Origin: Thermoplasmata archaeon
Lineage (GTDB): Archaea > Thermoplasmatota > Thermoplasmata > Lutacidiplasmatales > UBA184
Assembly (NCBI GenBank): GCA_030041735.1
Contig: JASIBA010000128.1
Location: forward strand, 1 to 32,499
DNA: 32,499 nt
Reading direction: 5' to 3'
In this document: piece by piece, positions 1 to 7,376 of the stretch
How positions within the stretch are numbered: the first letter of the stretch is position 1
Layout of the letters: every line of letters begins with the position of its first letter
Program-made: the position numbers and the translations under genes
Notes under the pieces: generated by a model
Seen by the model: the letters and a program-made list of their open reading frames with translations, nothing else
What the model was told of the DNA's origin: nothing
Database searches by the model: none

Positions 1-927
1 AAGCGCCCGCTGATGGAGCGCACGGTCATGATCGCTAACACCTCCAACATGCCCGTCGCGGCGCGAGAAGCGAGCGTGTACACCGGGATCACGATCGCCG
101 AGTACTATCGCGACATGGGCTACGACGTCGCGCTGATGGCCGACTCCACGAGCCGGTGGGCCGAGGCAATGCGGGAGATCTCGGGCCGGCTCGAAGAGAT
201 GCCGGGCGAGGAGGGCTACCCGGCCTATCTCGGGCGCCGCATCGCCGAGTTCTACGAACGCGCCGGTCGGGTCGTGACGCTCTCCCCCGAACAACGCATG
301 GGATCGGTCACCGTCGTGGGCGCCGTCTCCCCAGCGGGGGGCGACACCTCTGAGCCCGTCAGCCAGAACACGCTGCGCGTCGCCCGTGTCTTCTGGGCGC
401 TGGATGCAGCGCTGGCATCGCGCCGGCACTTCCCGTCGATCAACTGGCTGCAGAGCTACTCTCTCTACATCAGCGACCTCACGCCGTGGTTCGGGCAGAA
501 CCTCTCGAAGGAGTTCGTCCCGCTCCGTCAGAAGGCGCTCGAGACCTTGCAGAAGGAGTCCGAGCTCCAGGAGATCGTCCAGCTCGTCGGGGTCGATGCG
601 CTCCCCGAGCGTGAGAAGGCGACGCTCGACGTCGCCCGGATGATCCGGGAGGACTACCTCCAGCAGAGCGCCTACGACGACGTCGACACCTACTCCTCGA
701 TCCAGAAGCAGTACCGCATGCTGCGGGCGATCCTCCAGTTCGGGGACCAAGAACAGGACGCGGTCGGGAAGGGCGCGACCGTGGCCCAGATCCAGAAGCT
801 CCCCGTCCGGACGAAACTCTCCCGGATGAAGTGGATCCCCGAGGCTGAGCTGCAGAAACAGTTCGACGCGCTCGAATTGGAGATGGGGCAAGCGGTCGCG
901 CAGGTGGCAGCCTCGGGAGGCGCCTAG
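1..927 (+). CDS. atpA: A-type (V/A-type) ATP synthase catalytic subunit A, C-terminal part (5' end truncated by window edge)
   Basis: Frame 1 is open from base 1 ([77 protein letters not shown]), characteristic of archaeal AtpA; followed directly by subunit B. Confidence 0.97.
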
Positions 928-928
928 G

Positions 929-2356
929 ATGGCCGCGAAGGGAGCCCGCCCGGCGCCAGCGCCGTCGGAGGTGCCGATCGACTACCGGACCGTGGACCGC
1001 GTGACCGGACCGCTGCTGTTCGTCCGCGACGTCGCGAACGCCGCGTACGGGGAGATCGTCGAGATCCAGCTCCCGAGCGGCGAGCGCCGGCAGGGCCAGG
1101 TGCTCGATTCGCGGAAGGGTCTCGCCATCGTCCAGGTGTTCGGCCCGACGATGGGCATGAACATCGAGGCAACGAGCGTCAAGTTCCTCGGCGAGGTCGC
1201 AACTCTCCCGGTCTCGGACGAGCTCCTGGGCCGCGTCTTCAACGGGCTCGGCGAGCCCCGCGACGGCGGGCCGAAGATCGTCAGCGAGACCGAGCTCGAG
1301 ATCGTCGGGAACGCGATGAACCCGTATTCTCGCGAGGAACCGAGCGAGTTCATCCAGACGGGCATCTCGACCATCGACGCGATGAACACGCTCGTTCGGG
1401 GCCAGAAGCTCCCGATCTTCTCGGGTGCGGGGCTGCCGCACAACCAGATCGCCGCGCAGGTCGTCCGTCAGGCGAAACTGCGGAACTCGACAGAGGGGTT
1501 CGCCGTCGTCTTCGCGGCGATGGGGATCACGAGCGAGGAGGCGAACTACTTCCTCAAGGAGTTCGAGTCGACCGGGGCGCTCGAGCGCGCCGTCGTCTTC
1601 CTCAACCTCTCGTCCGATCCGTCGATGGAGCGCGTCGTCACGCCGAGGATGGCGCTGACCGCCGCGGAGTTCCTCGCCTACCAGCGGGACCTCCACGTCC
1701 TCGTCGTGCTCACCGACATGACGAACTACTGCGAGGCGCTCCGGGAGATCTCGGCCGCACGGGACGAGGTGCCCGGTCGGCGCGGCTATCCCGGGTACAT
1801 GTACACCGATCTCGCGACGATCTACGAACGGGCCGGCAAGATCCACGGACGCAAGGGGTCGATCACCCAACTGCCGATCCTCACGATGCCGGCGGACGAC
1901 GTCACGCACCCGATCCCGGACCTGACCGGGTACATCACCGAGGGGCAGATCTACGTCAGCCGGGAACTGCAGCGCCGGGGCGTCTACCCGCCGATCGACG
2001 TGCTGCCCTCGCTCTCGCGTCTCATGAACCAGGGGATCGGCAAGGAGCGGACCCGCGAGGACCACCGCGGGGTCGCCGACCAACTGTTCGCGACGTACGC
2101 GACGGGTCGGGACCAGCGCGCGCTCTCGGCGATCGTCGGTGAGGAATCGCTGAGCGCGGTCGACCGGCTCTACCTCAAGGCGGCGGACCGGTTCGAGACC
2201 GAGTTCGTCAACCAGCGGCCCGACGAGGACCGGACGATCGACCAGAGCCTCACGATCGGCTGGGACATCCTCTCGGACCTCCCGGACTCGGAGCTGAAGC
2301 GGATCAAGCCCGAGTTCGTCGCGAAGTACCGGACCCACCCGAGCCTCATTCAGTAG
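929..2356 (+). CDS. atpB: A-type ATP synthase subunit B
   Basis: 475 aa; motifs [63 protein letters not shown]; 1-bp gap after atpA. Confidence 0.97.
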
Positions 2357-2367
2357 CGGGGGTCGAC

Positions 2368-3018
2368 GTGGCCGGAGAGACGGTTCGACCGACGCGCCTC
2401 GAGCTGCTGCGCACGCGGCGGCGCATCGTCGTCGCGAAGAAGGGCCTCAACCTGCTGAAGCTCAAGCGGACGGCGCTGATCGCGGAGTTCTTCGCGATCT
2501 CCAAGGAGGCGATGAAGCTCCGCGGCGACCTCCAGAAGCGGATCGCGCGGGGCTACGAGTCGATCCGATGGGCCGAGATGATGGAGGGTCCGACCCGGCT
2601 CGAGAACATCTCGATGCTCCTCCCCGACGTGCACCCGGTTCGCGTCGCCACGAAGAACGTGATGGGCGTGCGTACGCCCCAGGTCGATCGCGGCTCATAC
2701 ACGCCCGTGGCCGCGCCCGAGCTCCTCGATCTCCCGACCTCGGTGAACGAGTCGATCCGCCACTTCCAGGGGATCTACGCGGTGGTCCTCGACATCGCGG
2801 AGAAGGAGAACGCGCTCCGCCGGCTCCTGAAGGAGATCGAGAAGACGAAGCGGCGGGCGAGCGCGATCGAGAACGTCCTCATCCCGCGGCTCCAGGGGAC
2901 GGTGCGCTACATCAAGTTCCGATTCGACGAGCTCGAGCGCGACTCGTTCAGCATGCTCAAAGCGGTCAAGCGCAAGATCGAGCAGGAGGAGGACAACGTT
3001 GCCGCCGGGGCCGCCTAA
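2368..3018 (+). CDS. atpD: A-type ATP synthase subunit D (GTG start)
   Basis: 216 aa; RPTRLELLRTRRRIVVAKKGLNLLKLKRTALI, typical AtpD N-terminus, coiled coil; follows atpB. Confidence 0.95.
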   Translation: MAGETVRPTRLELLRTRRRIVVAKKGLNLLKLKRTALIAEFFAISKEAMKLRGDLQKRIARGYESIRWAEMMEGPTRLENISMLLPDVHPVRVATKNVMGVRTPQVDRGSYTPVAAPELLDLPTSVNESIRHFQGIYAVVLDIAEKENALRRLLKEIEKTKRRASAIENVLIPRLQGTVRYIKFRFDELERDSFSMLKAVKRKIEQEEDNVAAGAA

Positions 3019-3130
3019 CGTCGCGGTCCGGCGGTTCGCCGCCGTCCAGCTCGTGAGCCTCGCGGTGAAGATCGCCGCGGTCCTCGTCCTGATCGTGGTC
3101 GCCGTGCACTACCTCACGGGAGGGTTCTGA
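2999..3130 (+). CDS. Predicted 43-aa single-pass membrane peptide in the ATPase operon (TTG start)
   Basis: Below the ORF-track cutoff; translation (L/M)PPGPPNVAVRRFAAVQLVSLAVKIAAVLVLIVVAVHYLTGGF*. Overlaps the atpD 3' end, fills the atpD-atpH gap, is preceded by a Shine-Dalgarno-like GGAGGAGG (2985-2992), and has one hydrophobic helix. Confidence 0.65.
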   Translation: MPPGPPNVAVRRFAAVQLVSLAVKIAAVLVLIVVAVHYLTGGF

Positions 3131-3134
3131 GCGC

Positions 3135-3491
3135 GTGAGCGCCGCCGAGACGCCCCAGACCGCCGGCGCGATCGATGCGCTCAAGCGGGTGCGCGCGAGC
3201 GAGATCGACTGGGACCAGCGGGTGACCGCCGCCAAGCAGGCGGCGGCCGAGGAGATCGCGCAGCAGCGCGCGGCCGCCGACGCGGCCGTCAAGTCGGCGC
3301 AGGCGGCGGCCGACCAGGAGCGGGCGCAGAAGGTCCAGGAGGCCCGGAGCGACGCGGACCGTCAGGCGATCGCGATCCTGGCCGACGGGGCCCAGGCCGC
3401 GGACGTGGCGGCCCGGGGCGAAGGCAAGCAGCCGAGCGACCACGCCGACGCGATCCTGAGCGCCGTCCTGGCGGGCTTCCTCGGGGACTGA
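3135..3491 (+). CDS. atpH: A-type ATP synthase subunit H-like coiled-coil protein (GTG start)
   Basis: 118 aa Ala/Glu/Gln-rich coiled coil directly before subunit I, the position expected for AhaH/AtpH. Confidence 0.8.
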   Translation: MSAAETPQTAGAIDALKRVRASEIDWDQRVTAAKQAAAEEIAQQRAAADAAVKSAQAAADQERAQKVQEARSDADRQAIAILADGAQAADVAARGEGKQPSDHADAILSAVLAGFLGD

Positions 3492-3503
3492 CGGGGCGGC
3501 GCG

Positions 3504-5495
3504 ATGGGGATCCTCCGCCCGGCCCGGATGACCAAGGTCGGCCTGATCGGACTGCGGGACGACGAGAGCCGGATCCTGAGCCTGCTGCACGATCTCCGGA
3601 TCGCGCAGATCGAGACCCTGCCGCCGGCCGCGCTCGCCGAGCTCGTGCCGGAGCGCGGGACCGAGACCCAGCGGGCGATCGGCGACGAGGCGCTGCGCTT
3701 CCGCGGGCTCAAGAACGCACTACCGCCCGCTCCCGTGGGTCCGCCGCGCCGCTTCGACTCCGTCGAGGAGATCCTGGCCGCCGCGCGGACGGTCCCGATC
3801 GACCGCGAGGTCGGGGACCTGAAGCGGGAGGACGATCGCCTGACCTCGGAGGAGCGGGCGCTGGACGAGCGGATCGGGCTGCTGGGACAGCTCGCGTTCT
3901 ACCCCGACCGACTGGAGTACCTGCACGCGCAGAGCTTCGTCTCGTTCCTGGGCGAGGGCACGCCCGAAGCCCGCACCCGCATCGGAACGCTCGTCCCACC
4001 CGAGGCCGACGCGCAGTTCCTGGACGACCCGGCGACCCCGGGTCGCTTCCTGGTCTCGCTCAAGACGCAGCAGGCCGACGCGCTCACGCGCGCGGCCCAG
4101 GGGAGCGGCGTGAAGCTGGTCGCGGTCCCGGTGCTCGCCGGGACCGTGCCCGAGGAGCGGGCCGAGGCGGAGTCGGCGCGGCGCACGGCGGTGCTGCGAC
4201 GGGCGGAGATCGCCGCCCGGCTCGGCGCGATCGCGGCCCAGTGGTACGGCACGATCGCCGCGATCGACGAGGCGCTCCAGATCGAGGTCCGGAAGGTCGA
4301 GGTCCTCTCGAAGCTCGGCGCCGGCCGCGCGACCTTCGCGATGGAGGCGTGGGTGCCGGCCCGCGACGTGGGCCGGCTCGAGGCGCTCGTGCGTGGCGCG
4401 ACGGGCGATCGTTGCTACCTCTATCGGGTCATCACGACCGAGGAACCCCCGACCCTCATGGACAACCCGCCGGGGGTCCGGCTCTACGAGTTCTTCATCC
4501 GGTTCTACTCGCTTCCCCAGGCGGACGAGTGGGACCCCACCTTCGTCTTCGCGCTCGTCTTCCCGCTGTTCTTCGGGCTCATGCTCGGCGACTGGGGCTA
4601 CGGGCTCACGATCCTGCTCGTGTGCCTCTGGATGATCGCGGGATTCCCCGGCGCCGGGCGGTTGCCGAAGTTCGGTCGGGACTTCGTCAAGCGCATCATG
4701 AGCCCGTACGGCATGCGCTCGCTGGCGTACACGCTGATCCCGGGGTGTCTCCTCGCCGTCGGGCTGGGCCTCTACTGGGACGAGTTCTTCGGCTACGCGC
4801 TCTTCTCCCACTGGTTCGGCTACGTCGCGCCGTTCGACCCCGTGCGGAACCTGGGCTTCCTGCTGCTGTTCGCCGGGTTCGTCGGGCTCGGGATGGTGAC
4901 CCTCGGCTTCGTCTTCGGGCTCCTGAAGGAGTACTTCCACCACCACCCCCGCGGGGTCGTCGCGAAGGCGGGCGGGATCCTGTTCGCGTGGGGCGTCGCG
5001 TTCTTCGGCCTCGCGGTCATCCACCACCAGGCCGGCTTCTCCTTCGTCGGGTTCGACGCGTACCTCGGGCTGATGATCGGGGGGCTCGTCCTGATGATCG
5101 GCGGCGAGGGGATCCAGACCGGCGCGATGGGCCTCATCGAGGTGGTGAGCCACATCCTCTCGTACACCCGGTTGGTCGGCATCCTGCTCGCGAGCGTGAT
5201 CCTCGCGGTCGTGATCAACTCGATCGGGGCGGGGCTCGTGGTCGGCGGCACGATCGTCGGGATCATCGCCGGCCTCGTGATCATCGTGATCGGCCAGTCG
5301 TTCAACGTCATCCTCGGCGTCTTCGAGCCGGGGATCCAGGGCGCGCGGTTGATCTTCGTCGAGTACTTCTCGAAGTTCTACACGGGGAATGGGAAGCCGT
5401 TCCGGCCGTTCGGTGCCGCCCGGACGCACACCGTGTCCACGGTGACGCCCGACGGGCTCGCGACGGGCCCGATCCTGCAGAGCCCGCCGTCGTGA
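3504..5495 (+). CDS. atpI: A-type ATP synthase subunit I (a-subunit)
   Basis: 663 aa, N-terminal cytosolic domain (MGILRPARMTKVGLIGLRDDESRILSLLHDLRIAQIE) and multi-TM C-terminus including FALVFPLFFGLMLGDWGYG and EPGIQGARLIFVEYFSKFYTGNGKPFRPF. Confidence 0.96.
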   Translation: MGILRPARMTKVGLIGLRDDESRILSLLHDLRIAQIETLPPAALAELVPERGTETQRAIGDEALRFRGLKNALPPAPVGPPRRFDSVEEILAAARTVPIDREVGDLKREDDRLTSEERALDERIGLLGQLAFYPDRLEYLHAQSFVSFLGEGTPEARTRIGTLVPPEADAQFLDDPATPGRFLVSLKTQQADALTRAAQGSGVKLVAVPVLAGTVPEERAEAESARRTAVLRRAEIAARLGAIAAQWYGTIAAIDEALQIEVRKVEVLSKLGAGRATFAMEAWVPARDVGRLEALVRGATGDRCYLYRVITTEEPPTLMDNPPGVRLYEFFIRFYSLPQADEWDPTFVFALVFPLFFGLMLGDWGYGLTILLVCLWMIAGFPGAGRLPKFGRDFVKRIMSPYGMRSLAYTLIPGCLLAVGLGLYWDEFFGYALFSHWFGYVAPFDPVRNLGFLLLFAGFVGLGMVTLGFVFGLLKEYFHHHPRGVVAKAGGILFAWGVAFFGLAVIHHQAGFSFVGFDAYLGLMIGGLVLMIGGEGIQTGAMGLIEVVSHILSYTRLVGILLASVILAVVINSIGAGLVVGGTIVGIIAGLVIIVIGQSFNVILGVFEPGIQGARLIFVEYFSKFYTGNGKPFRPFGAARTHTVSTVTPDGLATGPILQSPPS

Positions 5496-5501
5496 GCCGG
5501 C

Positions 5502-6578
5502 CTAGAGCCGGGGCGAGACGAGCAGCGGCTCGAGGCGCTCGGACGGGATCCCGTACATCTTCCCGAACGAGATCCGGCGCAGGTCCGCGCGCTCCAGCTC
5601 CGCGAGCAGGAGGAACGTGAAGATCACGCTGAGCGAGAGCGGGTAGGTCTTGAGCCGTTTCAGCTCGGCGACTGCCCGGTCCCGCGTGGCGGCCGCCTCG
5701 TACGCGGTGAGGCTCCCCTCGGAGCGGAACTGGTCGCTCCCCTGCGGGATCGACGGGAAGTGGTCCGCGAGGCGATCGGCGAGCTCGGGGACCCCGCGCG
5801 CTCCGTAGAGGTCCGGTGCCTGGGCGGCGGAGATCGTCCCGCCCTCGAGCCAGCGGGCGGTCACCGCGTCGAGCGGCAGGTCGACCGCCTTGCCCTTGAG
5901 CAGGAGGAGCGCGTTGCGGAGATCGATCTCGCTCGCCAGCAGCTGGCGGACGACCCACTCGTCGCCCTGGAAGAACTTCGCCGCCTCGCGCACCTGCGCG
6001 TAGTACTCGCGGTCGAGCGCGAGGAGCACGGGAAAGATGTCGTGGGTCCGCTCGAACTGCTCGAGCAGCGGCAGGATGGTGCCCCCGTAGCCGAACTTGA
6101 CGAGCTGCGCCACCGTCGCCTCGATCGAGGGCTGCGCGAGCAGCGTGCGGTAGTCGTCGAGCGTCAGCACGCCCGCGTACAGCCCGGCGGGGATCTCGCG
6201 GCTCGAGATCAGGTGCTCGTCGGTCTCGGTCACCGGCCGGCCCTGCGCTTTCGAGGAGAGGATCAGCTCGATGTTCTCCCGGTCGTAGCGGGTCAGGTAG
6301 GCGCCGACCACCGCGCGCCCGGCGAACGGGGTCGCCTCGAGCGCGTGGCGGTTCCGCCGGACGAAGGTGCGGTTGGTCGCGACCTCGAGGAGCGCGATGC
6401 CCTGGTAGGCGGCGCGCGCCTGCTGGACGTCCGCCCCGTACGGCGTCGTCTCCAGGACCTTCGCGATGTCGCCGACGTCCCGCGCCCCGAGCAGGCTCGT
6501 GTACGTCTCCCGCCCGAGGAACGAGGTGAACTCGGGCTTGAGGCGCCCGAGCGCGCTCGCGTACGCCGAGGCCGCCAC
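5502..6578 (-). CDS. atpC: A-type ATP synthase subunit C (AC39/d-type; GTG start)
   Basis: 358 aa; YASALGRLKPEFTSFLGRETYTSLLGARDVGDIAKVLETTPYG and YDRENIELILSSK resemble AtpC; downstream of atpE. Confidence 0.93.
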   Translation of the reverse strand: MAASAYASALGRLKPEFTSFLGRETYTSLLGARDVGDIAKVLETTPYGADVQQARAAYQGIALLEVATNRTFVRRNRHALEATPFAGRAVVGAYLTRYDRENIELILSSKAQGRPVTETDEHLISSREIPAGLYAGVLTLDDYRTLLAQPSIEATVAQLVKFGYGGTILPLLEQFERTHDIFPVLLALDREYYAQVREAAKFFQGDEWVVRQLLASEIDLRNALLLLKGKAVDLPLDAVTARWLEGGTISAAQAPDLYGARGVPELADRLADHFPSIPQGSDQFRSEGSLTAYEAAATRDRAVAELKRLKTYPLSLSVIFTFLLLAELERADLRRISFGKMYGIPSERLEPLLVSPRL

Positions 6579-6589
6579 GGGAACCCCTC

Positions 6590-7141
6590 CTACGCGAGGA
6601 TCTCGCGGACCTTGTCCTCGCGCAGGCGCAGCAGCTCGTCGAAGGAGAGGTTGAGGCGCCGGTCCCCGTCGGGCGTCTCCGCGACGATCCCGCCGAGGAT
6701 GGGCTGGGGCGTCGCGTCGAAGAGCTTCCCGGCCGCCTTCTGCAGGCGGGCCGCATCCTCCACCCGGCCCATGACCTTGATCTGCCGACCGAGCTCGTCG
6801 GTCGCGACCTGGACCATCCGCTTGAGCACGTTGGGGTACTCGGGCCGGTCCGTGAAACCGCGGAGGAGGTCGCGCGTCGCCCCGATCGCGCCCTCGAGCC
6901 GGTGCTCGCGGGCCTCGTAGAGCGACTTCCGCGCCTTCAGCTTCGCCGCGGCGATCCGCTGGGCCCTCTCGCGCGCGACCTCCGTCTCCGTCGCGCGGGC
7001 GGATGCGGCTTCCAAGTCCGCGATGGCGTGATCCCGGTCGGCAGCGATCTTGGCTTCCTGGGCCTGCTTCGCGGTGTCGGTCGCCTTCAGCTCGGCCTCC
7101 GCGCGGGAGCGGATCTCCTCGATGAGGCTGTCGAGGGTCAT
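6590..7141 (-). CDS. atpE: A-type ATP synthase subunit E
   Basis: 183 aa; N-terminal coiled coil and globular C-terminus (GGIVAETPDGDRRLNLSFDELLRLREDKVREIL); between atpK and atpC. Confidence 0.93.
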   Translation of the reverse strand: MTLDSLIEEIRSRAEAELKATDTAKQAQEAKIAADRDHAIADLEAASARATETEVARERAQRIAAAKLKARKSLYEAREHRLEGAIGATRDLLRGFTDRPEYPNVLKRMVQVATDELGRQIKVMGRVEDAARLQKAAGKLFDATPQPILGGIVAETPDGDRRLNLSFDELLRLREDKVREILA

Positions 7142-7157
7142 GGGCTCGGCGCCGGCT

Positions 7158-7376
7158 TCAGATCACGCCGAGCAGCAGGATGATCCCCAGCACGAACCCG
7201 ATGATCCAGAGCGTCTCGGGGATGACGAAGAAGAACAGGACCTGCCCGAACTTCTCCGGCTTCTCGGCGATGATCCCCATGCCCGCGGCGCCGATCCCGG
7301 ACTGGGCCATGCCCGTCCCGATGAGCCCGCCCGCGATCGCGATCCCGGCGGCGAGAGTGGCGTACGGATCGGCCAT
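7158..7376 (-). CDS. atpK: A-type ATP synthase subunit K (c-ring proteolipid, single hairpin)
   Basis: 72 aa, two TM helices, GTGMAQSGIGAAGMGIIAEKPEKFGQ loop and FVIPETLWIIGF carboxylate motif. Confidence 0.95.
   Translation of the reverse strand: MADPYATLAAGIAIAGGLIGTGMAQSGIGAAGMGIIAEKPEKFGQVLFFFVIPETLWIIGFVLGIILLLGVI

Follow-up and report, generated by a model that had tools for sequence, protein, structure and literature searches.

KdpF and CydX are micropeptide subunits of energy complexes, and in the archaeal aha operon the gene ahaG follows ahaD. KdpF, CydX and CcoM (36 aa in the passage of PMC10433244 cited here) are single-helix peptides of ~30–45 aa, encoded beside large subunits and overlooked by annotation. 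AhaG of M. mazei, a 6.3 kDa protein with one very hydrophobic tryptic peptide, has an unsettled place in its complex (PMC4350412), and a 2013 survey found no AhaG orthologue in Thermoplasmatales (PMC3750248). For the V-type-like atp operon of acidophilic and hadal archaea (Wang 2019; Sheridan 2022), the passages of PMC6863869 and PMC9287336 cited throughout this report count nine subunits or list the standard ones. In their main texts, as far as these were searched, neither paper mentions the micropeptide gene, and in one of the two, sequences shorter than 50 aa were dropped from the gene-family analyses. According to the same passages, this operon type has passed horizontally from phylum to phylum and has links to acid and high pressure. 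Its ATPase is a leading case of a complete energy machine that archaeal phyla have passed to one another, a transfer that correlates with the colonising of acid soils and ocean trenches. Here we describe a conserved, unannotated membrane micropeptide gene that, on the evidence of sequence, is specific to the V-type-like archaeal ATPase. As an extra conserved gene travels with this ATPase and is missing from its annotation, the parts list of the enzyme is probably incomplete.

The window, by which we mean the whole stretch of 32,499 nucleotides that was analysed, is the beginning of a Thermoplasmatota MAG contig and holds this same V-type-like operon. It is most closely related to Lutacidiplasmatales-type MAGs from soil, which we place in Lutacidiplasmatales partly by inference, with isolate names as in the cited part of PMC9287336. 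The genes run A-B-D-x-H-I on the plus strand, where x is the micropeptide gene, followed by convergent C, E and K on the minus strand; D is followed by H/G and then I, as in the published V-type-like order FABDH/GICEK (PMC9287336). The features are as follows.

13–927, plus strand: atpA, C-terminal part, truncated by the contig start (ORF list)
929–2356, plus strand: atpB (ORF list)
2368–3018, plus strand: atpD, rotor shaft subunit D of the V-type-like clade (PF01813, E 1.8e-47; tree)
2985–2992, plus strand: GGAGGAGG, a Shine-Dalgarno-like sequence within the atpD 3' end (sequence)
2999–3130, plus strand: micropeptide gene, 43 codons, TTG start, TGA stop; signature N7..R11-R12-F13 and K24 (F+11)
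3135–3491, plus strand: atpH/G, peripheral stalk subunit, from its position, coiled-coil-like sequence and the published gene order in the cited part of PMC9287336; no Pfam match
3504–5495, plus strand: atpI, membrane stator subunit a/I (PF01496)
5502–6578, minus strand: atpC (PF01992)
6590–7141, minus strand: atpE (PF01991)
7158–7376, minus strand: atpK, c-ring proteolipid (PF00137)

The initial annotation had placed at 2999–3130 a 43-aa ORF that starts with TTG and overlaps atpD in another frame, and these coordinates hold: the overlap is 20 nt in the +1 frame, the atpD stop lying at 3018. The 116-nt gap from atpD to atpH is almost filled by the ORF (112 nt), as had been described, and the atpH GTG at 3135 comes 4 nt past its stop; TGATG-type junctions between the micropeptide ORF and atpH are found in several relatives. 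From the upstream stop to the conserved motif, the TTG is the sole ATG, GTG or TTG in the micropeptide frame. GGAGGAGG had been correctly located 6 nt before this TTG; by itself it is weak evidence for the start, because the Glu-rich tail of atpD, through its glutamate codons, produces the Shine-Dalgarno-like run. A Shine-Dalgarno-like 4-mer occurs 4–15 nt upstream in 39 of 43 homologues of the order against a background of 17%, a figure that is biased by the same tail and on which we do not rely. Throughout Lutacidiplasmatales (the window, with 5502–7376 on the minus strand against 13–5495 on the plus strand, and L022–L069), atpC, atpE and atpK are convergent to A-B-D-x-H-I, so that the ATPase would come from two opposed transcription units.

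Like AhaG, the window peptide is small (43 aa), has one hydrophobic segment (a helix at residues 8–40) and is encoded after subunit D, whereas AhaG belongs to an A-type enzyme in which ahaD-ahaG stands at the operon end and the window has a D-x-H junction. We regard AhaG as the nearest precedent, a precedent in kind. KdpF, CydX and CcoM have no sequence relationship to the window peptide, and a match to KdpF (E 0.099, one of 37 members) was at chance level. Pfam and NCBIfam hold no family matching the micropeptide, and a search of the PDB by sequence returned no related chain. A further small ORF was seen in A-type operons of other Thermoplasmatota (L094–L120, L137–L163), where a one-TM ORF of 40–60 aa directly follows atpD (21 of 28 in the tree sample), often with DTPEKKAKW and with no Pfam or NCBIfam match; it is possibly an AhaG counterpart. 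It shares with the window peptide the position after atpD, the one TM and, often, the overlap with the atpD stop, but its signature differs from that of the V-type family, and homology between the two was unsupported (hhalign probability 1.6–9.9%, with 2–27 of 60 shuffles reaching the score). Archaeal ATPase operons may use the position after atpD repeatedly for genes of small membrane proteins. The initial annotation's view that canonical A-ATPases have no such subunit stands for A-type Thermoproteota (0 of 80 loci, below) and is qualified by AhaG and by the ORF of A-type Thermoplasmatota.

Among Lutacidiplasmatales-type atpD loci (L021–L069), 44 besides the window have a +1-frame ORF over the atpD stop, usually of 36–50 aa and in some cases up to ~65 aa. 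Only 3.4% of the remaining gene ends in these loci (46 of 1335) have a comparable hydrophobic ORF, against nearly all relatives of the window operon, and the micropeptide ORF is therefore commoner than chance. Thirty-seven compact relatives, aligned at the protein level in the micropeptide frame itself, though with almost no gaps, have no stops in that frame and 46 and 3 stops in the other two. An MG-type codon model, fitted on the fixed tree of atpD with base frequencies specific to codon position, gave ω = 0.187 for the micropeptide frame (2ΔlnL 187 vs ω = 1) and 1.08 and 2.43 for the two other frames of these 37. The Nitrososphaeria homologues, a distant, AT-rich and independent set, gave ω 0.11 (2ΔlnL 220), with no stops in frame and 78 and 36 in the others. 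Pairwise NG86 dN/dS, with a pooled ratio near 1, was discarded in favour of the codon model because third positions of ~92% G+C make NG86 under-count synonymous change. The two ω values and the stop-free frames settle the coding status, and by these codon comparisons the ORF is a gene under purifying selection. Both checks proposed with the initial annotation, for a conserved hydrophobic ORF at the same position in relatives (found in their D-H gap) and for purifying selection in its frame, thus came out in its favour.

The homologues vary in length between groups. In Thermoplasmatales the version in the D-H gap has 33–59 aa; in Nitrosotalea-like and hadal-type AOA it has a 41-aa core, again in the D-H gap; the Marsarchaeota-type version reaches 81–90 aa with the same C-terminal helix, and two DPANN loci (L314, L320) have one of 33–35 aa. 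The Thermoproteota group names used here are inferred from atpD type and the literature, except for L071 (Marsarchaeota G2). Whatever the remaining gene order, homologues always sit between D and H/I. Profile comparisons joined Lutacidiplasmatales to Marsarchaeota (94%, E 1.2e-7) and to Thermoplasmatales (86%), and Nitrososphaeria to Marsarchaeota (93%) and to Thermoplasmatales (72%), and in these four pairs none of 60 block-shuffled profiles reached the score. The direct pairs Lutacidiplasmatales-Nitrososphaeria (9.6%, 1 of 60 shuffles) and Marsarchaeota-Thermoplasmatales (22%, 4 of 60) were weaker and are linked via the other groups. Common to the groups is the signature N-x3-[RK][RK]F-x10-[K/R/N], which, anchored on the aromatic, consists of N at F-6 (weakest in Thermoplasmatales), basic residues at F-2 and F-1, V/I at F+3 and, at F+11, a residue that is polar. 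The last is found in 88% of Lutacidiplasmatales (K/R), 100% of Nitrososphaeria (N), 100% of Marsarchaeota (K/E) and 85% of Thermoplasmatales (N), and as N in both DPANN peptides. Conservation beyond the signature is low.

The gene is tied to one type of ATPase. In Thermoproteota a V-type-like atpD (49–60% identical to that of the window) is followed by the micropeptide at 26 of 26 non-redundant loci and an A-type atpD at 0 of 80, a contrast whose Fisher p of 2.5e-25 is inflated by kinship. That inflation does not affect the contrast within genomes: six carry both types (G367, G369, G388, G390, G392, G403; loci L287–L294 with L243, L253, L256, L260, L262), and in them the micropeptide is found only after the V-type atpD. 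The atpD tree unites the V-type-like genes in a single clade (SH-aLRT 100); of its 66 sampled members, 62 have the peptide. The Lutacidiplasmatales-type atpD, that of the window included, falls together with the genes of Thermoplasmatales and of V-type-like Thermoproteota (aLRT 100). The initial annotation's reading of an unannotated, single-helix membrane peptide tied to an ATPase holds in substance, and the peptide is conserved; the operon, which it had taken to be A-type, belongs by this tree to the V-type-like acidophile clade. The archaeal side of the survey comprised Thermoplasmatota, Thermoproteota and DPANN. In four bacterial V-type loci on plasmids, the atpD stop was not accompanied by an equivalent membrane ORF.

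One Lutacidiplasmatales sub-clade accounts for three of the four exceptions in the atpD clade, and DPANN for the fourth. The sub-clade (L065/L124, L066, L068, L085/L126) has no copy of the micropeptide, and since G088, one of its members and 98% complete, contains no relative anywhere in its genome, the absence there is a loss. In L065, L066, L068 and L124, D is directly followed by a 127-aa H, and positions 1–7000 of L124 contain ORFs of C- and E-fitting size, identified by size only, that share the strand of D; where the peptide was lost, the operon layout may have been different too. Within the sampled DPANN order two loci keep the peptide and about a dozen are without it. Among other Lutacidiplasmatales, L051 has no recognisable copy, L034 has the ORF but lacks an ATG, GTG or TTG before the motif, and the atpD of L059 contains Ns. 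Apart from the sub-clade and most of the sampled DPANN, the peptide follows the complex (26/26 vs 0/80; 62/66), as expected of a stoichiometric subunit. With the peptide in 62 of 66 members of a single clade, we conclude that the clade ancestor had it, that it passed from phylum to phylum together with the operon, and that a few lineages have lost it. As judged from these sequence comparisons, the peptide is an old part of the V-type-like ATPase operon and was co-transferred with it.

AlphaFold predicts one helix, residues 8–40, with mean pLDDT 90, and the basic residues of RRF precede its hydrophobic part, in agreement with the basic N-terminus and single hydrophobic helix first described; a lone helix says little about structure. 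In its N-terminal half the helix is amphipathic, and in Nitrososphaeria and Thermoplasmatales strongly so; the membrane core begins near F+11, and the basic residues suggest a cytoplasmic N-terminus. We consider it reasonably probable that the gene is translated, that its small product is an accessory of the Vo/Ao membrane sector in the V-type-like archaeal ATPase, and that it acts by the following mechanism as a whole. The ribosome ending atpD would reinitiate, or be recruited, at the overlapping start, coupling the translation of D, the peptide and H in that order, and the peptide would be made in proportion to D and H. The 43-aa chain would insert with RRF on the cytoplasmic side, its ~33-residue helix lying at the interface with the N-terminal half and crossing the membrane with the C-terminal half. 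The conserved polar F+11 (K/R/N), at the start of the transmembrane core, would dock the helix on AtpI or the c-ring, and docking would stabilise the membrane sector of a pump facing acid or high pressure. The peptide is likely a physical subunit of the ATPase complex. We know of no purified complex of the V-type-like clade. Only tentatively, with rather less than even confidence, do we extend this to a tenth, unrecognised membrane subunit that would define the V-type-like ATPase clade and be needed for the acid or pressure tolerance that the enzyme confers as its operon moves from one archaeal phylum to another.

Since one Lutacidiplasmatales sub-clade and most sampled DPANN do without the peptide, the enzyme can work in its absence, and the peptide may instead serve in assembly or regulation. 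An assembly factor or an insertase helper for the c-ring or AtpI, absent from the finished complex, would be expected to share with the peptide its small size, its membrane location, its coding in the operon and its loss from some lineages, and UncI/AtpI of bacterial F-type operons offers a comparison. When M. mazei subcomplexes were expressed in E. coli, the subunits recovered did not include AhaG (PMC4350412). The close inheritance of the peptide with a single type of enzyme in several phyla and the conserved residue pattern within the helix, however, suit a fixed protein partner at least equally, and we think a transient helper unlikely, though it is the main rival. Regulation from the membrane, such as inhibition of ATP hydrolysis or of low-energy pumping, has counterparts in small ATP-synthase inhibitors elsewhere, for example AtpTheta (among the references in the cited part of PMC11456600), and would fit a peptide confined to an acid- and pressure-linked ATPase variant (PMC6863869). 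With nearly all of its 43 residues modelled as helix and interface, though, the peptide would lack a soluble domain for the catalytic head, and coding within the operon, between D and H, points to synthesis that is constitutive and proportional; a regulator strikes us as quite improbable.

A non-functional ORF, which GC-rich sequence had produced by chance or which served as a translational spacer with an irrelevant peptide, could account for the low overall identity and for a Shine-Dalgarno-like sequence made of atpD Glu codons. Such an ORF is contradicted by the selection test (ω 0.19 and 0.11) by zero stops against up to 78 in alternative frames, and by the survival of the ORF in AT-rich and GC-rich genomes alike with one signature across phyla; we give it almost no credence. 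Taking the ORF as a gene has a practical side: E. coli has been made to express a codon-optimised version of the N. okcheonensis operon (PMC6863869), and recoding by annotated genes alone could destroy an overlapping, TTG-started ORF in heterologous expression. The old question posed by AhaG, whether archaeal ATPases contain a small hydrophobic protein, can now be tested in cultured organisms.

Two other small ORFs were noted near subunit D genes. The V-type operon on an Enterococcus gallinarum plasmid (L283, 3912–4085) encodes a 57-aa hypothetical protein 332 nt past subunit D, which is perhaps the ntpH-like gene of Enterococcus. For neutrophilic AOA, Wang 2019 leaves the short form of stalk subunit H/G unidentified in the cited passage (PMC6863869). 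At the atpD stop of A-type operons in many Nitrososphaeria (AOA-type) genomes we found a conserved, charged, soluble ORF of 43–48 aa (MAKEEIKKLVE.SKK...; L181, L182, L184, L185, L188–L190, L192–L194, L196, L198), which could be this short stalk subunit.
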